A stretch of DNA of 36,497 nt, taken from positions 1 to 36,497 of the forward strand of contig VMGT01000013.1 of assembly GCA_007376725.1 (NCBI GenBank). Reading direction: 5' to 3'. Numbering within the stretch: the stretch's first letter is position 1; the number at the start of each line of letters is the position of its first letter. Origin of the DNA: Parcubacteria group bacterium Greene1014_15 (GTDB lineage Bacteria > Patescibacteriota > Minisyncoccia > Phycocordibacterales > VMGT01). The notes below the pieces were generated by a model that made no database searches, had not been told where the DNA came from, and saw only the letters and a program-made list of their open reading frames with translations. This document shows positions 1 to 30,821 of this stretch, piece after piece. The position numbers and the translations under genes were made by a program.

Positions 1-678
1 GAACGGCGTGCAGTGATCGAAGCAACGATGAAAGCTGGTGCACGGAAAGCGTATGTTATCCGCGAACCCATTTTGGCCGCAATTGGCGCAGGGATACCTA
101 TATATGAGGCGCGGGGACACATGGTTGTTGATATTGGCGGCGGTACAACTGACGTGGCCGTTATTTCTCTCGGTGGCATAGTGTCTTCGGCCTCGGTGAA
201 ATGCGCAGGAAATCGTATTGATGCCTCTATTATTGACTACATTAAAAAGACGTTCAATCTGGCGATTGGCGATAAAACAGCGGAAGATATTAAAATGCAG
301 GTAGGTTCTGCCGTGCCCGTTGACGAGGAACTTTCCATGACTATCAAGGGGCGTGATTTTGTTTCTGGACTTCCGCGATCCACGGAGATCAAGACCAATG
401 AAATTGTAAAAGCGATCACAAAGGAGCTTCGAGAGGTAATCAAAGCTATCAAAGATGTTTTGCAGGAAACGCCTCCTGAATTGTCAGCAGATATCATAGA
501 TCAGGGTATTATTATGACCGGCGGGACGTCACAACTGCGCAATCTGCCGGAACTTGTCTTTCGCCGCACGGGCGTGAAAGCTGTTCTCGCGAAAGATCCG
601 CTCTACTGTGTGGCGAATGGGACGGGAATTGCTCTTGAGCATTTGGATACATATAAAAGGACAATTATTTCCAAATAA
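1..678 (+). CDS. mreB: Rod shape-determining protein MreB/actin-like ATPase, 5' truncated by window edge
   Basis: Frame is open from nt 1 (ERRAVIEATMKAGARKAYVIREPILAAIGAG...VVDIGGGTTDVAVISLGG); actin-fold phosphate-binding motifs; strong similarity to the full MreB at 11049-12113. Confidence 0.93.
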   Translation, partial: ERRAVIEATMKAGARKAYVIREPILAAIGAGIPIYEARGHMVVDIGGGTTDVAVISLGGIVSSASVKCAGNRIDASIIDYIKKTFNLAIGDKTAEDIKMQVGSAVPVDEELSMTIKGRDFVSGLPRSTEIKTNEIVKAITKELREVIKAIKDVLQETPPELSADIIDQGIIMTGGTSQLRNLPELVFRRTGVKAVLAKDPLYCVANGTGIALEHLDTYKRTIISK

Positions 679-690
679 GTTTCTTTCCGT

Positions 691-1398
691 ATGGAAAAGA
701 ATATTACTCATTTTATTGAAACACTGCGGGAGCATTATGAACGGAGGGGTGGTCTTCATCATGCGTATCTGCTCGATCGCAGCACGGCGCGGACACGCGG
801 TGAACTTTTTACATTTTTTGAAAGCGATCTTGGTATGGCAACGTCGGGAAATCCGGATATTTGGAGCGCTTCCTTTGAATCATTTGGCATTGATGATGCG
901 CGAGAGCTTGGTGAACGTGCATCGCGAAGTCCGCTTGGCGATCGAAAAATTTTTATTATTGAAATGCAGTTCATTACGGTGCAGGCGCAGAATGCTTTGC
1001 TCAAGGTTCTCGAAGATCCGGTGAAAGACACACATTTTTTCTTTTTGATGCCCAGTGCCAGTGCGGATATTTTGCTTCCCACGGTGCTCTCGCGCCTTAT
1101 GCGTATAGGAGGAGCAGGGTGCGCAGAGCAGGTGGTTGATGATCGGGTGAGATCTTTTCTTGCGTATGATAGAGCGAAACGCATCGTATTTCTTAAGACT
1201 GCTTCCCAAATTCTAGAAGACAAGAAGGCTGCTGTTACGTTTATTAATTCACTCGAAGAGCTTGTATATTCGAAGGCTCGTGGCGCCGCAGTACCTTCTG
1301 AAATTGCCCAATCTCTCGAAGAAATTGAGCTTTGTCGCGGCTATATGTATGACACATCAGGGTCTATGAAGATACTACTTGAACATGATACTACTTGA
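691..1398 (+). CDS. holB: DNA polymerase III delta' subunit-like protein, C-terminus altered by a tandem duplication
   Basis: HAYLLDRS...ITVQAQNALLKVLEDPVKDTHFFFLMPSA..LLPTVLSR is typical of clamp-loader delta'. Confidence 0.8.
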   Translation: MEKNITHFIETLREHYERRGGLHHAYLLDRSTARTRGELFTFFESDLGMATSGNPDIWSASFESFGIDDARELGERASRSPLGDRKIFIIEMQFITVQAQNALLKVLEDPVKDTHFFFLMPSASADILLPTVLSRLMRIGGAGCAEQVVDDRVRSFLAYDRAKRIVFLKTASQILEDKKAAVTFINSLEELVYSKARGAAVPSEIAQSLEEIELCRGYMYDTSGSMKILLEHDTT

Positions 1399-19486: not shown

Positions 19487-19498
19487 TCCCCAAAACGC

Positions 19499-19526
19499 TT
19501 GACAAGAACAACGATATGTATATTCT
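19499..19526 (+). promoter_or_regulatory. Sigma70-like promoter upstream of parB
   Basis: TTGACA-16 nt-TATTCT. Confidence 0.45.
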
Positions 19527-19604
19527 ACAGGGAGAACTTTGTGACCCGAGTCTCATGGTCACAAAGCAAGCTGATGCGGTAATCTCCAAAAAGGAGTTAT
19601 ACTC

Positions 19605-20441
19605 ATGGCAGAAGACACTATGGGAAGTTTCAAAGCGGTGGGCCAGGTTGTGGAAATTCCCGTTGAAATGATCGATCCAAACCCATACCAACCGCGTACG
19701 CATTTTGACGCCCTAAAGATCGCCGAACTCGGTGAGTCCATTAAGGAAAATGGACGGGTCACGCAACCGATCACTGTTCGCGCGAAAAATGGCCGATTCG
19801 AGTTGGTTATTGGCGAACGCCGTCTGCGGGCGTGCAAGGCGATCGAGTTTAAGACTATCTCTTCGATTATTTCCGAGATGAGTGCAGAAGAGGCGTGTGA
19901 AGTTGCTCTCATCGAGAATATCCAGCGAGAAGATTTAACGCCCATGGAAGAGGCGCGGTCAATAGCCAGCCTAGTCGAGCAATATGGTGGCAGTTACGCC
20001 CAAGTTGCGGAGCGGATCGGCAAAAGCGAGCCATATGTTCGACAGAGAGCGGCGCTGCTTACTCTCGCGAAGCCGATTCATGAGATGCTCGATGAGGGGA
20101 AGCTTAATGTTGCGCAGGGTATTGCAATCGTGAATTTGGGTCTCGACGATGAAGAGGCGCAAATGCAGGTTGCAAAGAAAGCGTTCCGTCTTCGTCTGAA
20201 TGCAAATCAGATCAAGGGAAATGCTCAAGATAAAACCGACAAGGTGAAGCGTGACCAGAGGAATACTGTGACGCTTGCGTCAACAAGCAGGGATCTCATT
20301 CGTGCCCACGATTCTCTTGAGAGATACATGGGCGATGGTCTCTCTACGCTCGCGGACATAAAAAAGCGTACTCTCTTTGAAAAGCAGGTCAAGGATATGC
20401 GCGATATGTGTGACGTAGTGTTACAGAACATCGGTAGCTAA
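19605..20441 (+). CDS. parB: Chromosome-partitioning protein ParB/Spo0J family
   Basis: IDPNPYQPRTHFD, VIGERRLRACK, LIENIQREDLTPMEEA, HTH region YAQVAERIGKSEPYVRQRAAL. Confidence 0.93.
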   Translation: MAEDTMGSFKAVGQVVEIPVEMIDPNPYQPRTHFDALKIAELGESIKENGRVTQPITVRAKNGRFELVIGERRLRACKAIEFKTISSIISEMSAEEACEVALIENIQREDLTPMEEARSIASLVEQYGGSYAQVAERIGKSEPYVRQRAALLTLAKPIHEMLDEGKLNVAQGIAIVNLGLDDEEAQMQVAKKAFRLRLNANQIKGNAQDKTDKVKRDQRNTVTLASTSRDLIRAHDSLERYMGDGLSTLADIKKRTLFEKQVKDMRDMCDVVLQNIGS

Positions 20442-20470
20442 TTTTTTCTGCAAAATTCGAAACAAGCAAA

Positions 20471-20498
20471 AGGCCCACGGAGTAAAATCCGTGGGCCT
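20471..20498 (+). terminator. Rho-independent terminator
   Basis: aggcccacgga-gtaaaa-tccgtgggcct followed by catttttg. Confidence 0.85.
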
Positions 20499-20513
20499 CA
20501 TTTTTGTACATGG

Positions 20514-22094
20514 TCATGGAAAGACGTGTACTTCAGTGGCATCCAAAGCATGTAGGATATTTTGTACACACTGTTTGTGGGCTTGGAGTGGAACAAAACC
20601 GCCCTTAATCGTCTCGAGAGTTTCGATGACACCCTGTAACATCTGACCGAAATCACCTGTCTTGCCGACAACATCAATAAGTCGTTTGAGACCGTCGATT
20701 TGCTGCTCTATGGATACGGGTACGTGAGCATTGATCTCTTTTATCGGCGGAGTGTCACCGTTGCGCGTGTTGCCGAGCACACCCTCTTTTTGCAGAGCGC
20801 GAATGATTGCGGACGTACGCCGGTGATCCAACCGGAGCATGCTCCGGATCTCTCTATACGTTACGATGTTTTCTCGGCCACGAATATAATTCTTCGCTTT
20901 TTGAATCGCAGCATCGAAGCGCCGATGATCTTCAACGAATTTCTTAAGAAGACGCACCTCGGCGCACTTTCTGCATTCACCAGTTTTTTTTCGAGCAGGT
21001 GGGGCAGATTTCTTGCACGAAGGGCAGTTTAACGGTACGGCATTGTCGAGAATTGCGCGCGGCGTTTTAGGAACAACATACGGACCAATGACTTTCTTCT
21101 CTTCAAGACGGCGCATTATTTCTCTCGCATTTGGATAACTCGTGTGAAGCTGTTTTATTAGAAACCTAATTGCGGCGCGGCCGTGTTCTCTCACAAGTTT
21201 TTCAGCTTGGGACATCAGTTGCATCACTATTTCTTCACTAAATACCGCTTCTTTTCTTTTGTCCGCTTCGTGCGCATGTTCTAACACCAAGCGTGGTAAT
21301 AACGCTCGTTTCGGCCCTACTATCCCTTCTTGTTCGAGAAGAGAGAGAATTGCTTGAGCCCGTTTGAAACTCGTAGAAAACCTCTCCCGTATTGATACAT
21401 TGGAAACGGTTCTCATCGTAGAAACATACGCCCGAGCATCTGGTAGATGCCGCAGGACGATCGGATCATGCGCGTATGGATGCTCTCCCACAGTTGCGCC
21501 ATGTACCTCATGTACAGCCCCGTTTTCATGCCCCTTTTTTACACTGTCTGTGTGCATTGTTGTAACCTCAAGCACGGCTAATTCGTTTTCTGTAAGCGGT
21601 TTCCAACCATCCCCGAGTTCCTGGACTGCATGCGTGAGGCACAGCCCTGCCTGCCGAATTTGCACCGGACGCTCGCATCCTTCTTCCTCACAGAGATATG
21701 AAGGTTCTTTGCAACGACGACACTCGCCATCGGTAAACTCACCTTGAAGAGATTGAAGTCGAAAACAGGTCGTTACGAGAATATCTCGCTTCTGTATTTG
21801 ACAGGAAACCTGTTTTCCGATCTGGAATTTTGGTTTTCCGATTGACGCTTCGTCTTTCAGCGCTTGAGTTAAGCATACTGCACATCGTCCCGTAATTGGC
21901 ACGGCGATGGGTCGCTTTTCGCATTCTTCACAACGTCTCGACGGAGCGCCGCAGGCGAAGCACCCTTCTTGCCCCTGGACGAGCTCACAATGGCTTACCG
22001 TGGTATCTCGTCCGGCTATCTGGCAAAAAACATGCTCTTTGTGGTTGTCTACCATTGATGCCGTACTTCTCTCTTTTTCTGCATATTGTTTCAC
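20514..22094 (-). CDS. Multi-zinc-ribbon protein with FtsK-gamma-like winged-helix modules
   Basis: CFACGAPSRRCEECE, CRRCKEPSYLCEEEGCE, CPSCKKSAPPARKKTGECRKC; EEIVMQLMSQAEKLVREHGRAAIRFLIKQLHTSYPNAREIMRRLEEKKVIGP resembles FtsK gamma. Confidence 0.65.
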   Translation of the reverse strand: MKQYAEKERSTASMVDNHKEHVFCQIAGRDTTVSHCELVQGQEGCFACGAPSRRCEECEKRPIAVPITGRCAVCLTQALKDEASIGKPKFQIGKQVSCQIQKRDILVTTCFRLQSLQGEFTDGECRRCKEPSYLCEEEGCERPVQIRQAGLCLTHAVQELGDGWKPLTENELAVLEVTTMHTDSVKKGHENGAVHEVHGATVGEHPYAHDPIVLRHLPDARAYVSTMRTVSNVSIRERFSTSFKRAQAILSLLEQEGIVGPKRALLPRLVLEHAHEADKRKEAVFSEEIVMQLMSQAEKLVREHGRAAIRFLIKQLHTSYPNAREIMRRLEEKKVIGPYVVPKTPRAILDNAVPLNCPSCKKSAPPARKKTGECRKCAEVRLLKKFVEDHRRFDAAIQKAKNYIRGRENIVTYREIRSMLRLDHRRTSAIIRALQKEGVLGNTRNGDTPPIKEINAHVPVSIEQQIDGLKRLIDVVGKTGDFGQMLQGVIETLETIKGGFVPLQAHKQCVQNILHALDATEVHVFP

Positions 22095-22097
22095 CTG

Positions 22098-22424
22098 CTA
22101 CTCCTTTTTTGTGAATGCGGACATTGAAATAACATTATGCCCTAACATATATGCGCGTATGAGTGGTATGAGCATCGCTTCCTCCTTCTTTTTCGCCTCC
22201 TTTTTTTCCGCAATTTGAAGCGCACGAGCAATGGCGTATTCACATCCCTCACCACGCTCGGCAAGTGGTTTATCACAAGGAGACATGCGGCCTTGTGGAT
22301 CAAGGAATCCTTGTGCTAGGCACATGTCTGCTGTTGCATACAAGGTATATACGTTAGAGTTAATTTCTTTTTCAACGCGAGGATGATGCATCTCAACACA
22401 ATACGTGCAGCCGTTCATATACAT
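22098..22424 (-). CDS. Hypothetical Cys-containing protein
   Basis: ORF in apparent operon with flanking minus-strand ORFs; MYMNGCTYCVEMHH...CLAQGFLDPQGRMSPCDKPLAERGEGCEYA. Confidence 0.6.
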   Translation of the reverse strand: MYMNGCTYCVEMHHPRVEKEINSNVYTLYATADMCLAQGFLDPQGRMSPCDKPLAERGEGCEYAIARALQIAEKKEAKKKEEAMLIPLIRAYMLGHNVISMSAFTKKE

Positions 22425-22816
22425 TCTTCCCCATCATGTCTACTCATGACAGCAAGGTGTTGCTCTTCCGTTTGCAGAAAAAGACCTACTGTCGTATACC
22501 TGCAGCCGATCTCTTTCCTGTAACCACGTTCTTCTGCATCATCAATTTTACACCACGGCCACCCGCCGATTTCTTGATAACGATGCGTGAGTGCCTTCTT
22601 TGCTTCGTCCGATAGTACTGGCGTAAATTCGAAAAACGGAGCATCGCCGTGTCGGTATTCGGGAGACTCGATAAACTCATCAATGTAAGCCTCTATTGGC
22701 GCGATTTCAAAGACTAACTGCTCGTCAATCTTAAGTTGGCGTAATTCATCCATGATCGTGGTGATACGTTGTATTCTGGCTTCATATCGTGCTCTTGCTT
22801 CAGTGAGACTAATCAT
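22415..22816 (-). CDS. Hypothetical protein (internal ATG start preferred; ORF extends to 22882)
   Basis: MISLTEARARYEARIQRITTIMDELRQLKIDEQLVFEIAPIEAY...; overlaps the next minus-strand ORF. Confidence 0.55.
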   Translation of the reverse strand: MISLTEARARYEARIQRITTIMDELRQLKIDEQLVFEIAPIEAYIDEFIESPEYRHGDAPFFEFTPVLSDEAKKALTHRYQEIGGWPWCKIDDAEERGYRKEIGCRYTTVGLFLQTEEQHLAVMSRHDGEECI

Positions 22817-22911
22817 TGTGCGACCCTTTCTGCTACCAATCTGTTTGCGTATGCCAAAAAACTTCTGCTGATACAAAAGCATACATAGACACTCTAGTCA
22901 AGATAAACACT

Positions 22912-22928
22912 GTGTGATATAGTCACAC
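22912..22928. promoter_or_regulatory. Candidate operator dyad GTGTGA-TATAG-TCACAC
   Basis: Perfect 6-bp arms upstream of the minus-strand operon. Confidence 0.3.
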
Positions 22929-22971
22929 TGGAATAATTAATTATGAATTGTGCAATCCCCACACTTTCGGA

Positions 22972-23092
22972 AAATCCCCCTCATTCCCCCTTTCATAAAG
23001 GGGGAAGCCGAAACGCCACTCTCTCCTTTATGAAAGGGAGGGTGGGAGGGATGTGGACTCCTCCCTTTTTGAAAGGGAGGGTGGGAGGGATT
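22972..23092. repeat. REP-like hairpin cluster (family B)
   Basis: ttccccctttcataaagggggaa and related copies gaaagggagggtgggaggga (x2); same family as 7472-7576. Confidence 0.8.
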
Positions 23093-23188
23093 TATTCATA
23101 GCTGTGAGCAGTTACTGAAAGTACCTTGACGAATTTGAAGATACATTAATGAACCGGGGCTTACATGAGCCAATGAGGAGAGGTTTTG

Positions 23189-26100
23189 ATGGGAACAACG
23201 ATTGAATTACAGCATCTTCATCTTCCTGTCGACGATCGGCGAGAGCGTATTATTTCCGCGGTGAAACAGAATCAAGTAACGCTCATTGTCGGCAAAACCG
23301 GGTCTGGCAAAACGACAAGGATTCCTCAATTTCTACTTACTAGCGGCATCGGAGCTCATACTTGTCTTGTGTGCACACAGCCACGTAGAGTTGCGGCAAT
23401 GGGTGTTGCTTCGCGCGTAGCGGAAGAACGCAATTCTGTGCTCGGCGCAGAGGTTGGATATCACATTCGATTCGAACGCAAGCTCTCAAAGGAAACACGC
23501 CTCAAATTTGTTACCACGGGCGTACTGTTGCGAGAGACTATCTCTGATCCGCTGTTGACTCGCTATGTGTGCGTCATCATTGACGAAGCGCATGAGCGTG
23601 ATCTCTATACTGACTTGTTGCTCGGATACCTCAAGCGCGTGTGCGCCAACCGGCCCGACTTCAAGCTTGTGGTAATGAGCGCGACGCTCGACTGGCGCTT
23701 GTTCGCTGAATTTTTGCCCGGATCTGCTCTCGTGCGCATACCCGTACGGACGTATCCCGTGAACATCGAGTATCATCCTGCGAACTATCGTGATGATTTG
23801 TTTGCAGCAATGCTGCGGGATATTCAGTGGATATACCACATGAACAATGAAGGGGACGTTCTTGTCTTTTTGCCCGGCGAGCGCGATATCATGGAGTTTA
23901 TCGGAAAGCTTAGAGCTCTCCGATTAAAAGATCTCCATATATTGCCGCTCTATGGGGCGCTCTCTCCGAATGAACAACGGAAAGTATTCCGGGACACGGA
24001 AGGGCGCAAGGTGATTGTTGCGACAAACCTCGCAGAAAGCTCGCTAACACTCGGGCATATTACCGTTCTCGATTCGGGTCTCGCAAAGATTCCAGGATAT
24101 GATGCGGCGCTTGATGTTGAAACGCTTGATCTCGCGAAGATTTCTCAAAGTTCTGCGGAGCAGCGCGCGGGGCGTGCTGGCCGTGTAGCGCCTGGGAAAT
24201 GCATCCGTTACTTTTCAGAAGCGGACTTCATGTCGCGTCCGAGGTTTGATGATCCACAGATACACACGAGCGATCTCACGAGCCTTGTGCTCACCATGAA
24301 GTCTCTTGGCCTTCCGCGCGACTTTGACTTGCCGACACATCCGAGCGAAGAATCGTGGGAACGCGCAGTTGCGAAACTCAAAGTATTTGGTGCTCTTGAT
24401 CATATGGGTGCGTTCACATCGTATGGACGAGAGATGGTGCATTTTCCTCTTGAGCCGGAACTTGCGCACTTTGTGCTGCAAAATCGGCGTGCCTCGTTTG
24501 GGTGTCTCAAGATGGTCGTCGTCATGGCTGCCATGCTCACCGTCGGTCGTTTTTTCGTTCATGATTCCGACGATAGTGGATTGGAACATGCAAAAGAGTA
24601 TTTTCGGAGTCGCGGCGGTGACTTTATGACGCTTTGGAAAATCTGGCAGGGATATTACAAGTCAGGATTTAGTGATGCATGGTGTGTTACACACAAGCTT
24701 AATCCACAGTGGATGAAAGCAGCGAGAACCATGCGCGCTGAAATTCGGCGTACCCTAACGCGATTAAAGATACTGCATGTTGAAGTGGACGCGCGTTATG
24801 CGGAGCGAATTGATGCGGCGATCGTAAAAGGATTTTTACCAAATCTCCTTTGCTACCATCGCAACAATCTGTACCGCAATGCTCGTTTGAGTGAGCCGGT
24901 GAGTCTTTTCCCAGATTCCGCGCTCTTTGAACAATTGCCACCGTATGTCGTGTCTTATCAACTGCGACGGACGACGCGTCTGTATGCACACTGCAATCAG
25001 ATGGTTTCGCACGAGTTACTTCTCGAGATTGCCCCGGGCGCCCTTGTGCCGATGGTGATTAAATCAGGCGCCGCGCGAGACCTTCACGATGAGACCGTTG
25101 AGAAGAAACATTCGATTCATATGGCGGGTGTCTTGAGGATCTCAAAGGGAGGGAAAGAGCGTATCGTACATGTGGATGTTGACGTGGTACGAGATGGTGC
25201 GCATACTGTTTCTCTTGTCGATCGCGGTTCGCTTGTCATTGACGAATCACGATTTCCTGTAGCGCGACTGCCACTGTCACGAGACACCGTCACACTTCTT
25301 ACGGAGCACGATATCCGTGTGCTCGGTGAGATCCCGACAACGCAAGAGCTTTTGAGCGAGCTTTATCTCCCAGATTCCGTGTGTGTGGAAATACTTGCGG
25401 CTCTTAAACAGCTTGGCTATGTTGCCAAGAATTTGCCGCCCAAAAAAGTTCCACGCAGTGTTCTACCTTCGGCACAACGATTTAGAGAGGAAAGAAAAGG
25501 GGCGAGAAAGCCTGCGGATCGCCTCGTGTTTGGGCTCTACGAGAAACCGCTTGACGAACTGCATTTTTCTGCGAGCGCGCGTATGCATCTCTTTGGACTT
25601 GGCATCGCGACAATCGGCGATCTTCTAAAGTACAGCGAAGTCGGCCTTGAGCGCGCTTTGCGAACTCTTGGAAAAGGGCGCGATGATATCGTTCTCGAAG
25701 TGAAAGAACAACTTGGATTTTTCGGTCTGGTTCTTTTACCGAGCGACCCTGGCGGCTGGGGAGAGAGAAAAAAAGGAGAAGGATGGCGTATCACGGACAA
25801 TGAGCTTTCCGAAGCCGTTTTTTCGGGCAATTCTCTCTCCGAAGAAGAATTTTCTCACATTGTTGGTGACCAGTTTCCTCTGTTCAAACAATTTCGCGAA
25901 GGAGACGATAGCGAGAAGCTCTTGGCGCGTAATGCTCTTACGGCCCTTAATCTTGGACTATGCAAGAAGAACGCCAGTTCGATTGGTAAACGGCTTGAGT
26001 ATGGCAGAAAGGAATTCATGCTCGAATGGGACGATCTCGTGCAAGAGGGCAGTATTGGCTTGATGCGCAGCATTGAGACATTTGACTATACCCGCGGATT

Positions 26101-27304
26101 TCGTTTCAGCACCTACGCGACATGGTGGGTGCGTCAGATCATGATCTGTCTTTTGGATGAATGGCTCCGTCCGGTGCGACTTCCCGTTTACGTGGCGGAA
26201 CAGTTTAAACAAAAGATTGACAAAATGAATGATGCGTGCATCGTGCTCGCGCAGAAGGGCAATATGCATCCCACGCGGGATGACGTTGCTCGAGAATTAG
26301 GCATTACCGGCGACGCGCTCGAACGATTGTTGGTTCTCCATAAGTTTTGGCAGACGGACTCACTTGATCGCGTCGTGATCGAAGGAAGAGAGTCGGAACA
26401 GGACGTTCTCGTGAGCGACTCTGTCTCTGACACGCGCGATTCGGCAGAAGAGCGGTATATTAATCAGCAGTTGATTGACTTTGTTTGCAAGCTTATTTCT
26501 GAAAGCAGTGCACAACCGGTTGATCATCGCTGTATTGAGCTCTACTATGGGCTCAATGGCAACCGAGAGCATACGCTTGAGGAGATTGGCGAACAGTTTG
26601 GTGTTACACGAGTGAGAATTCGCCAAAGAATTGCGAAGGTGCTTGATTCACTGCGTACGCAGGAGAATTGGGAGCGCGCGCGGGAATACGTGTCGTGGCT
26701 CCCCGCTCCCGGGTATATTCGCAGGACGGATATGGTGGTTGGCGAATCTGCGCGTGAACGCGTTGTGCGAAAAGATCGCACACGTGAAGAAATTGCAGAG
26801 GAACTCGTGCGGCGGGCGGCGCTTACCAATGAAGTTACTGTTGATGATCTCAAGAAAGGAGAGGGCTTGTCAGAAGACCTCGTACTACTGCGCAGACAGC
26901 TTATCGGAGAATTTAGCATTAAGGCAAAGCTCTCCACGGCATTTACGGCAGAGTATTTCAATCTGTCGGACGAGATTGCCGCAGAAGAGGAACTTGCATA
27001 CTTGACTGTTGTCGATGGAGTGAACAAGGAAGATGTGAGAGACGCGCCGGCATGGCGCTGGGACGCGATGCGTATCATACTCCAAGCGGCGGATGCCGAT
27101 GGCTGTACGTCGGAAGATATATTCGGGACGAGCAGGGTGGCGCACATAGCACACGCTCGACACGTCGTCATGTATCGCTTGCGAGAAGAGCTCGCATTGC
27201 CATTCACGACGATCGCGCGGTTTTTGGGCAACAAGGATCATTCAACCATTATCCACGGCTACTATCGCATCAAACGGGAGTATGTGCCGGCACGGTTGAA
27301 GTAG
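23189..27304 (+). CDS. Giant fusion: DEAH-box (HrpA/HrpB-like) helicase + alphaCTD-like modules + sigma-70 + DnaA domain IV-like
   Basis: [10 protein letters not shown] (Walker A), [81 protein letters not shown] (alphaCTD-like); [35 protein letters not shown] (sigma r2), [29 protein letters not shown] (sigma r4); [39 protein letters not shown] (DnaA IV). SD aggagagg precedes ATG 23189. Confidence 0.88.
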
Positions 27305-27322
27305 AGTCGTTACCACAACTAT

Positions 27323-27353
27323 ACCCATCCCAACGCAAAGCGTTGGGATGGGT
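27323..27353 (+). promoter_or_regulatory. Perfect 14-bp stem, 3-nt loop hairpin abutting the SD of the next gene
   Basis: acccatcccaacgc-aaa-gcgttgggatgggt immediately followed by ggagg; no T-tract. Confidence 0.75.
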
Positions 27354-27366
27354 GGAGGTACCATCC

Positions 27367-28065
27367 ATGAAAATACAAGGAGTGCTTTCCGTAGAGGGCA
27401 TCAACCTGCACGTGCAGATTGATGCGGGAGATGAAGCAAAAGATGTGTTCGTTACGAATCTGCCGCCGCACGCTCTCGTGTTTACACGCGAACGTTTGCG
27501 AATCGAGGCGCTTGGTTTCTCGCAAGAGATTGTTGACACGCTTTTGCGGCAGAGGATCTTTCATTTGAATGATCTCGTTAATGAATACTGGGAGTTTACT
27601 CTCGAGAATGTTCCAAGCGAGGTGCGCGCAGATGTAGAAAAAACGCTCGAACTCTTTCTTGATGCTGCACTCATACCGTTCTCGGAAGAAATCCCTGAAG
27701 GTTTAGCGGCGCCGGAAGAATTAAAGCGTAGTGTGGCAAAACTTAAGGAGCTTCAAGAGATGCTCAATAGTGGGGCGCATTCCGAATCTCTCATTACAGA
27801 GGAGATTGAGAGCGGTACTATAGAGCGCGAGACCTCTGTTTCTGTGGCAAGTAACGGCGTTCATAACGAGAGCATTTCTGTCCTCGGACTTCCTGCGGGA
27901 GTTACAAGAGAATTACAGGGCGCTTTAGGTGTCACAGCGCTTGGCGACTTTGGCACAAAACATGTTGGTCGTAGAGAACTCGCTACACTGCGCTACATGA
28001 ATGAAAAAATTCTTGCGCGCATCGAAGCAGGTCTTTTGCAGCATGGTTTGGAACTTCCTACTTGA
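27367..28065 (+). CDS. Protein with two alphaCTD-like helix-hairpin modules
   Basis: SD ggagg 8 nt before ATG 27367; modules LRIEALGFSQEIVDTLLRQRIFHLNDLVNEY... and ISVLGLPAGVTRELQGALGVTALGDFGTKHVGRRELATLRYMNEKILARIEAGLLQHGLEL. Confidence 0.65.
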   Translation: MKIQGVLSVEGINLHVQIDAGDEAKDVFVTNLPPHALVFTRERLRIEALGFSQEIVDTLLRQRIFHLNDLVNEYWEFTLENVPSEVRADVEKTLELFLDAALIPFSEEIPEGLAAPEELKRSVAKLKELQEMLNSGAHSESLITEEIESGTIERETSVSVASNGVHNESISVLGLPAGVTRELQGALGVTALGDFGTKHVGRRELATLRYMNEKILARIEAGLLQHGLELPT

Positions 28066-28076
28066 GGTTTGAGTTC

Positions 28077-28877
28077 ATGAGAAACAAAGAACAAGCACTT
28101 GCTACAAAATATCTCCAAAAGGATGCGGGCAGCGACGGGCGGAATTTGCACAACGCGCAAGCGCTTGCACAGTTACAGAAAAAAATTGGTATTGCATTCC
28201 GTAACCCCGCTCTGCTCTCGGAAGCGTTGACGCATCGCTCATTTCTTAATGAAGTGCCGAAAGAGAAGCGCGAGCGATTCGCGCATAACGAAAGACTTGA
28301 GTTTCTCGGAGACGCGGTACTTGAACTTGCGGTAACCGATAAGCTCTATCGCATGTTTCCGGGAGTGCCCGAAGGTAAGCTCACGGACTATCGCTCCGCT
28401 CTTGTCAATATGACCTCTCTTGCCGAAACTGCGGACAAGCTCGGTTTGAACGACTTTTTACTTCTCTCTCAAGGAGAAGTTAAAGGTCCCGACCGCGCTC
28501 GCGAGCGCATTCTGGAGAACGCGTTTGAGGCGCTTGTCGGCGCGATCTATATCGATCGAGGGTTTGGTGTCGCGACACTGTTTCTCGATGATGTATTGTT
28601 CGTGAAGATTGATACGATCATAGCAGGACGACAGTATCTCAATCCAAAAAGTCATTTTCAGGAGATAGTGCAGGAGCGCGAAAAAGTTACTCCTCATTAT
28701 GAGACGCTCAAAGAAACAGGAACAGATCATGAAAAAGTTTTTCGTATCGGCGTGTTTTTTGGAGAACGATTAGTGGCGGAGGGTGACGGCAAGAGCAAAC
28801 AGGAAGCCGAGCAAGATGCTGCCCGGAAAGCTCTCGAAAAAGAGTACGGTATCGTTCTCAAAAATAGTTCTTTGTAA
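28077..28877 (+). CDS. rnc: Ribonuclease III
   Basis: NERLEFLGDAVLEL signature, ILENAFEALVGAIYID, C-terminal dsRBD (GDGKSKQEAEQDAARKALE). Confidence 0.96.
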   Translation: MRNKEQALATKYLQKDAGSDGRNLHNAQALAQLQKKIGIAFRNPALLSEALTHRSFLNEVPKEKRERFAHNERLEFLGDAVLELAVTDKLYRMFPGVPEGKLTDYRSALVNMTSLAETADKLGLNDFLLLSQGEVKGPDRARERILENAFEALVGAIYIDRGFGVATLFLDDVLFVKIDTIIAGRQYLNPKSHFQEIVQEREKVTPHYETLKETGTDHEKVFRIGVFFGERLVAEGDGKSKQEAEQDAARKALEKEYGIVLKNSSL

Positions 28878-28886
28878 TGAGAATGG

Positions 28887-29636
28887 ATGGGACACATGCC
28901 GGAAATCATCGTTGATCGGTATGGTGAAAAGATTGCAATAGCTGTGTCGGAACAAAAACTCGAACGGTTTGAGCTTAATCATGGCGATGGCAGTCTTGCA
29001 AGAATGTTTCAACTTCTTGCTGATCGTCGTCATAGTCTTGCCGATGTTGCTCGACATTTCGGTCTTTCTCGCGAGAGAGTACGACAGATATATCATGACA
29101 ATCTTGAGCCGTATTTTGATGAAGGTGGAGGGGAGCGTCATGTTCTGTATTCTGCTCTTCGGGTTCACGGAAAATTCCCAGACTATGTATTGCGTGTCTG
29201 GAGAGTTGCGAGAAAACAGGGTATTCGAGTTGAACACATCAATTATCAGGATACTGAAGGAAGGGTGTGGATGACCGATCATAACGCTCTGCAACTAAAC
29301 GGTACATTTTGCCAGGTGCGTTTCGGGGCAAATATCAGGAATCCCAGCGGGAAAAAAAGCGGTTTCTGGACAATGGTGAACGTACCGGTTGATGAGATCG
29401 AAAAGTTTGATTTTCATGTGTTCGTTGTCCAAGTTCCCGACATTCCAGAAAAATTTTTCATTGTTCCTTCCAAAATGCTTGCAACGATACCGCGACACAA
29501 CTCTGTAACAAAAGATAGAGCGTTGCGGGAAGTATACCTGCCACTCGGAAAGTGGTACGAATACTCGCAAGACTGGAAATTTCCCTGGAATAAGTACGAA
29601 AACGCCTGGCATCTGTTAAAGGAAAAGAAAGAGTGA
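28887..29636 (+). CDS. Sigma-region-4-like HTH fused to an uncharacterised C-terminal domain (nuclease-like?)
   Basis: HSLADVARHFGLSRERVRQIYHDNLEPYF matches the sigma-70 r4 HTH signature; C-terminal FDFHVFVVQVPDIPEKFFIVPSKMLATIP. Confidence 0.65.
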   Translation: MGHMPEIIVDRYGEKIAIAVSEQKLERFELNHGDGSLARMFQLLADRRHSLADVARHFGLSRERVRQIYHDNLEPYFDEGGGERHVLYSALRVHGKFPDYVLRVWRVARKQGIRVEHINYQDTEGRVWMTDHNALQLNGTFCQVRFGANIRNPSGKKSGFWTMVNVPVDEIEKFDFHVFVVQVPDIPEKFFIVPSKMLATIPRHNSVTKDRALREVYLPLGKWYEYSQDWKFPWNKYENAWHLLKEKKE

Positions 29637-29661
29637 TCATTTCATAGACTGTGAATTACGA

Positions 29662-29690
29662 AACTCCCGCACACACCTGCTGCGGGAGTT
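29662..29690 (+). terminator. Rho-independent terminator
   Basis: aactcccgca-cacacctgc-tgcgggagtt followed by tttt. Confidence 0.9.
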
Positions 29691-29802
29691 TTTTCATACA
29701 TCACAAAACCGCTTCAAGATTGAAGCTTCTGTCTTTCACACAATGTACACAACAAAAAACACAAATAACGAAAACAAAAACATCAGATTACTTTCGGGAT
29801 GG

Positions 29803-29894
29803 GAAATGGGGTCAAATGGGCAGGATGCAGAAATGGGGTCAATCAGAAATGGAAAGAAATGGAAAGAAAAAAGAAATGGGGTCAGCCACCATTT
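29803..29894. repeat. RAYT-associated left-end repeats (gaaatggggtca x3; last extended to aaatggggtcagccaccattt)
   Basis: Copies at 29803-29814, 29830-29841 and 29873-29884; 21-nt end at 29874-29894. Confidence 0.85.
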
Positions 29895-29920
29895 CTCAAT
29901 TTCTATGATATTATAACTCC

Positions 29921-30598
29921 ATGCCACGCATCGCACGCACCGACATTGCTGATACTGTGTACCACGTTCTGAACCGTGCCAACGCACGGGCACAGATTTT
30001 TGATTCGAAGAAAGATTACGATCTCTTTGAGAACATTCTTGAAGAAGCCGTTGAACGTTTCAGTATGCGCCTTCTTGCGTACTGCCTCATGCCGAATCAC
30101 TGGCACCTAGTGCTCTACCCGCGTGCCGATAACGACCTCTCACGATGCATGACATGGCTCACGAATACGCATACCAGGCGCTGGCACGTGATGAAACAGA
30201 CGGTGGGACAAGGACATCTCTACCAAGGCAGGTATAAATCATTCTTGTGCGAAACTGACTCGCATTTTGTAACCCTTGTTCGGTATGTCGAGCGCAACGC
30301 CCAAAAGGCCAATCTCGTTCAACGAGCGGAGAACTGGAGATGGTCGAGTGTGTGGCGAAGGGAGAATGGTACAGAGCGGCAGAAGAAACTCCTCTCGCAG
30401 TGGCCCGTGTCGGAGCCGCATCAGTATCTTGCACTGCTCAACGAGCCACAGACCCAGGCAGAAGAAGATGCTCTTGAGCGATCAATCACCAAAAATATTC
30501 CATTTGGCACTGAGCAGTGGCAGGGTGTTATTATCAAGAAGTATGGTCTGGAACAAACACTGCGATCAGTTGGTAGGCCAAGAAAAAATGGTGGCTGA
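29921..30598 (+). CDS. REP-associated tyrosine transposase (RAYT, Y1_Tnp/IS200-like)
   Basis: ARTDIADTVYHVLNRANARAQIF, YCLMPNHWHLVLYP (HUH), GHLYQGRYKSFLCETDSHFVTLVRYVERNAQKANLV, WRWSSV. Confidence 0.95.
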   Translation: MPRIARTDIADTVYHVLNRANARAQIFDSKKDYDLFENILEEAVERFSMRLLAYCLMPNHWHLVLYPRADNDLSRCMTWLTNTHTRRWHVMKQTVGQGHLYQGRYKSFLCETDSHFVTLVRYVERNAQKANLVQRAENWRWSSVWRRENGTERQKKLLSQWPVSEPHQYLALLNEPQTQAEEDALERSITKNIPFGTEQWQGVIIKKYGLEQTLRSVGRPRKNGG

Positions 30599-30657
30599 CC
30601 CCATTTTCCTCCATCCCCATTTTCCTCAAGAAAAAATGGTGGCTGACCCCATTTTCC
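30580..30657. repeat. RAYT right-end direct repeats (aagaaaaaatggtggctgaccccattttcc x2)
   Basis: 30580-30609 and 30628-30657 are identical 30-mers; the core is the reverse complement of 29874-29894. Confidence 0.93.
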
Positions 30658-30821
30658 CCCACCCATTTTCCCCCACGAGATTTCTCGGTAGAATCCTTGA
30701 TTGCTTCGTCGCTTTCGGCCTTACGTTTCTTTTGAATTACACCCTGTGGTGAGTATTCCCGCAGGGTGTTTCTGTTTTGTGGAACAGTAGTCGTGGACTG
30801 TGGATAAATCGCTTGCGGATG

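Follow-up and report, generated by a model that had tools for sequence, protein, structure and literature searches.

An orphan protein next to a helicase-sigma-DnaA_IV fusion in Greene1014_15 as a possible diverged copy of that protein's alphaCTD-like linker

The open reading frame (ORF) at 27367..28065 (+) of the Greene1014_15 contig is a genuine gene, encoding an orphan protein of 232 aa with two degenerate alphaCTD/HhH-like modules. Alignments provide moderate evidence that this protein represents a diverged copy of the linker (residues ~646-848) between the helicase and sigma regions of the large fusion protein encoded upstream. Judged by profile comparison, the resemblance of its C-terminal module to the C-terminal domain of the RNA polymerase alpha subunit is probably more than chance, although it varies with the profile, and that of the N-terminal module is suggestive only. 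The window, meaning the whole stretch of DNA analysed, is the entire contig of 36497 bases from a 1.17-Mb genome.

The orphan ORF and its modules

The ORF begins with ATG, preceded by a GGAGG Shine-Dalgarno sequence 8 nt upstream. An ORF with a strong Shine-Dalgarno sequence and two quoted peptides had been reported in a sequence-only reading of this DNA, and all are present at 27367-28065 on the plus strand. The protein consists of several segments: an N-terminal segment (residues 1-35, 27367..27471, +), for which a low-confidence model predicts two β strands and to which fusion residues 644-688 align as similar; a weak N-terminal alphaCTD-like module, ORF_N (residues 36-112, 27472..27702, +); a linker; and a C-terminal alphaCTD-like module, ORF_C (residues 161-232, 27847..28062, +).

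The modules were compared with a mixed alphaCTD profile made from 18 RpoA CTDs and 6 non-RpoA alphaCTD-like proteins of relatives. With shuffle counts that are somewhat flattering because the modules were picked by eye beforehand, ORF_C reaches 9.6 bits over nearly the whole domain, a score attained by 2 of 5000 shuffles, and ORF_N reaches 4.4 bits over the domain's first half only (13/5000); the ORF linker, used as a control, is matched by 1466 of 5000. The corresponding modules of the fusion score 19.5 bits (MID_C, fusion residues 776-860, 0/5000) and 9.0 bits (MID_N, residues 681-760, 1/5000). In a ranking by the alphaCTD profile, the fusion modules and ORF_C stand ahead of 469 other ORFs of the genome. 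The result for ORF_C depends on the profile, with 217 of 5000 shuffles doing as well against RpoA alone and none of 5000 against the non-RpoA alphaCTD-like set, and the dependence of ORF_N is the opposite (5/5000 against RpoA alone, 818/5000 against the non-RpoA profile). Of the two alphaCTD patterns claimed by the earlier reading, the C-terminal one is thereby placed probably above chance, and the N-terminal one is left suggestive.

The ORF has no Pfam match even at E<=10, PF03118 included. The single NCBIfam match (E<=10) is meaningless. No match to the ORF was obtained in the PDB or in the phage and plasmid collections, and no credible relative was found in a scan of ~750 genomes of the same phylum; collection scans with the fusion linker as query likewise returned no relatives. 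Neither an RNA-binding domain nor a known anti-sigma family was detected in the ORF with Pfam and NCBIfam. When the genome was scanned with PF03118 (cut at E<=1), the ORF was not matched; the fusion alone was, at E 0.0075 and below the cut-off. Three sets of apparent hits were set aside: a match in G015 (E 1.5e-4) falls in a long coiled-coil, lytic-transglycosylase-like protein, one in G274 (E 0.003) spans no more than residues 100-168, for the most part linker, and matches of residues 98-140 to I-CeuI and homing endonucleases (E 0.02-0.1) were put down to linker similarity. Single-sequence AlphaFold2 modelling of the ORF is poor (pLDDT 39); the C module reaches pLDDT 65, with one long helix where the second hairpin is expected, and Foldseek searches with the single-sequence models gave no match. 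The models thus lend no support to the compact four- to five-helix HhH-type fold expected of an alphaCTD.

Compared with the alphaCTD of RpoA (PF03118), the C module is a weak whole-domain profile match that keeps the same helix order and the '..L.LS..t...L....I.tiGdL' start, but the ORF lies below any Pfam threshold. It is a separate protein of 232 aa, not tethered to the N-terminal (assembly) domain of RpoA, and a normal RpoA is present in the same genome (G000:C41). An alphaCTD-like module outside RpoA is a feature shared with small stand-alone proteins of relatives (for example G007:C7, 163 aa; G028:C7, 179 aa), some of which join a sigma-r4-like HTH to a clear alphaCTD (L142 on G024:C29, 209 aa; L140 on G029:C2, 267 aa). 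All these proteins match PF03118 clearly (E 1e-7 to 1e-21) and have the hairpin glycine, whereas both modules of the ORF are degenerate and an HTH is absent from it. Sigma-r4 proteins of ~350 aa in relatives, also considered, form a separate family with no visible alphaCTD.

The DNA-contact set was checked in E. coli numbering (Arg265, Asn268 and the hairpin residues Gly296/Lys298). In the E. coli alphaCTD, Arg265 contacts UP-element DNA and the 261-type acids contact sigma region 4. In the alignment, the Arg265-equivalent is replaced in all four modules (ORF_N, ORF_C, MID_N and MID_C), and every module but MID_C has also lost the hairpin glycine; the RpoA of the same genome keeps both. The 261-type acids are not kept in the ORF modules. 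The earlier description of 'RNAP-derived parts' is not supported in a functional sense, given these losses. With the contact residues missing, alphaCTD-like action on DNA is unlikely and docking is the better guess for the role: on sequence grounds, the modules are degenerate and probably serve in protein docking.

The fusion protein and its linker

The fusion (23186..27304, +) is a single ORF of 1372 aa, delineated by domain and structure searches. It comprises a DEAH RNA helicase (residues 5-619), two alphaCTD-like modules (~644-850), sigma-70 regions r2-r4 (945-1169) and DnaA domain IV (1297-1362). The Walker A, DEAH, region 2.3 WW and DnaA KDHST loop motifs are intact. The helicase half is complete, with E about 1e-106 to 1e-120 against HrpA, Prp22/DHX8 and Prp43 structures, and the ~300 residues between helicase and sigma belong to no confident family. 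With HrpA and the Prp22-Prp43 DEAH helicases the fusion shares the whole DEAH core, OB fold included, up to residue 619; in place of the C-terminal part of HrpA, it has the alphaCTD-like linker, sigma-70 and DnaA domain IV. Like the sigma protein MzaA from the MZA anti-phage system, the fusion is large with its sigma-70 core on the C-terminal side, but it matches MzaA in the sigma region only, at 156/800 bits, far under the curated cut-off, and no Mza partner genes are seen in the window. DEAH helicases occur in 15 of 387 genomes of the class, that of Greene1014_15 included; in the other 14, where some longer helicase frames were read in part, the sigma fusion was not seen. No such fusion or linker copy was found in the literature searched. 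Two 35-nt partly palindromic repeats lie directly upstream of the fusion gene (23018-23091) and are possible regulatory sites.

Blind searches agree with the earlier claim that the fusion contains the same type of module, with residues ~640-851 matching genuine RpoA proteins of other genomes. The fusion or its linker retrieved the RpoA of G016, and the RpoA CTD was matched in G507 (E 3.4e-4) and G676 (E 0.0023).

The apparent source of the ORF is the segment of fusion residues 644-846 (25115..25723, +), as indicated by alignments. In global alignment, the score of ORF_C against fusion residues 783-852 is equalled by 0 of 2000 shuffles and by 0 of 8078 windows from the other ORFs of the genome. 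The N-terminal half is less distinct: for ORF residues 1-106 against fusion residues 644-747, the score is equalled by 11 of 2000 shuffles and, among real windows, by 15 of 7232. When the whole ORF is moved along the fusion, the best spot is the collinear window from 646, with a score of 33, and windows from other ORFs reach at most 28 (n=2462); at the window 644-846, set beforehand, the score is 23 and a single one of 2462 genome windows is higher. No significant match was returned by phmmer or BLASTP between ORF and fusion, or by a local alignment restricted to the N module.

The island and the neighbouring genes

Between lysS and mraZ the window carries 11.4 kb (19487..30796), a region that is an island or a strongly divergent locus. 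In G001, a sister species and the only other genome of the same genus that was compared, the lysS-mraZ distance is ~0.95 kb, a figure derived in a draft assembly by joining two contigs, one following lysS and one preceding mraZ, over a 119-base end that is identical in both; G001 likely has an empty site at this position. The island comprises a second ParB, which shares 37% identity with the main ParB of the genome on C54, an FtsK-gamma protein and two small orphans, all three on the minus strand, as well as the fusion and the ORF, a second RNase III, a protein with sigma region 4 and a RAYT. Direct repeats of more than 10 bp flanking the island were not found. Contamination was considered and rejected, since the contig composition fits the genome, as do the rsmH and lysS proteins, which are 73-84% identical to those of G001.

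Of the non-ParB island proteins used as queries, none was found in G001, G002, G004 or G016, and neither the fusion gene nor the ORF was found in any relative searched. The proposal of an interacting pair therefore lacks comparative support, with both genes missing from relatives and the same-genus locus apparently empty, and conservation of gene order in relatives, which had been suggested as a check, is a test that this pair has no means of passing.

The fusion, ORF and RNase III genes lie on the same strand with short gaps (27304/27367 and 28065/28077). The ORF had been placed immediately after the fusion; it does come next after the fusion stop at 27304, but the 62-nt gap between the two genes contains, directly ahead of the Shine-Dalgarno sequence, a perfect 14-bp hairpin (27323..27353, +). 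The hairpin has a z of -5.4 against shuffles and may be a terminator-like or processing element. Perfect hairpins of at least 12 bp occur about once per 10 kb in the genome and, being so common, this one need not be special. Co-expression of fusion and ORF is not certain because the strong hairpin separates the two genes. The second RNase III gene (28077..28877, +) follows ~12 nt past the ORF. It is a divergent copy, the main one being on C51, with active-site motifs as in relatives; in the rnc tree it sits on a long branch, and grouping with its own family is not rejected (p-AU 0.26). Next comes a protein with a sigma region-4-like HTH according to Pfam (28887..29636, +).

Elsewhere on the island, the 526-aa protein at 20514-22094 (-) has two FtsK-gamma-like winged-helix domains, no FtsK motor and Cys-rich, zinc-ribbon-like stretches. 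The region 29867-30664 holds a RAYT-type Y1 transposase (29921-30598) between GGGGTCAGCCACCATTT repeats of opposite orientation. A perfect DnaA box, TTATCCACA, is located upstream of mraZ (30799-30807, -), and the same box precedes mraZ in G001 (L159).

Possible roles of the ORF and the alternatives

The reading tentatively preferred, to which somewhat less than an even chance is given, is that the ORF is an island-encoded, diverged and free-standing copy of the linker, which would either partner the linker modules of the fusion or compete with them. A stretch made up of the β segment, the degenerate alphaCTD-like module 1, a spacer and the alphaCTD-like module 2 would have been copied into the ORF, which would travel with the fusion on the 11.4-kb island. 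The modules would act as docking surfaces, having given up the reading of UP-element DNA. The fusion would be an island-borne alternative sigma factor, placed by its DnaA domain IV and with an RNA helicase attached, and the ORF product would pair with or compete against the linker modules, the two sharing a target on RNA polymerase or on the fusion. Along this route the gene itself, its likeness to the linker, the missing contact residues, the island location and the intact catalytic and sigma motifs of the neighbours are observed; we infer the duplication, the co-expression, the interaction between ORF and fusion and the effect on transcription. A more ambitious version, which is decidedly doubtful, describes a self-contained initiation device in which the helicase-sigma-DnaA_IV chain with its built-in modules is joined by the free-standing copy as a dedicated subunit.

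Other explanations place the ORF in different settings. It could be a helical/HhH nucleic-acid adaptor for RNA processing that has the DEAH helicase and second RNase III as working partners, transcription being uninvolved. HhH modules commonly bind nucleic acid, the helicase half of the fusion is a complete RNA helicase of HrpA/Prp type, and the RNase III gene just downstream, although a second copy and divergent, has normal active-site motifs. Such a role is nevertheless rather unlikely: intact sigma and DnaA IV domains are on the same chain as the helicase, the ORF modules are without the hairpin glycine usual in DNA-binding HhH, and the ORF is without a detected RNA-binding domain. The likeness to alphaCTD could also be coincidental, the ORF being a fast-evolving, mostly helical island orphan that shares no domain with the fusion. 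The empty Pfam search, the meaningless NCBIfam match, the negative phmmer comparison with the fusion, the lack of support from AlphaFold2 and Foldseek and the flattering by-eye choice of modules all fit this explanation, but the C module beats both the shuffle and the real-window controls and the best match of the ORF in the fusion sits collinearly, so coincidence is considered unlikely.

A copied linker could instead act as an anti-sigma-like inhibitor that binds the fusion where its own modules would bind and keeps the island sigma silenced. Anti-sigma genes frequently adjoin their sigma gene, the ORF is collinearly similar to the linker adjoining sigma, and its translation start is separate and flanked by the hairpin; the ORF, however, resembles no known anti-sigma family, and this role is given only a slim chance.

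The interest of the ORF rests chiefly on the adjoining fusion and on the possible linker copy. If the ORF is the detached linker, a piece of RNA polymerase has been put to new use two times, once within a sigma factor and once as its separate partner, and, if true, this happened in a bacterium with a small genome, on an island that looks mobile. If the self-contained device exists, it would redirect the RNA polymerase of the host (1.2-Mb genome) to island genes and, through the helicase and the second RNase III, would couple initiation to transcript processing. A testable question follows: does an alphaCTD-like module without DNA contact serve an alternative sigma purely for docking? Ordinary RpoD matches, and DnaA matches too, are seen in nearly all of 31 relatives. 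Besides RpoD, extra sigma-70 proteins (frames of 449-731 aa) occur in all three genomes of the family: L101 (G002:C6), L102 (G000:C13), L104 (G002:C15) and L105 (G001:C12).
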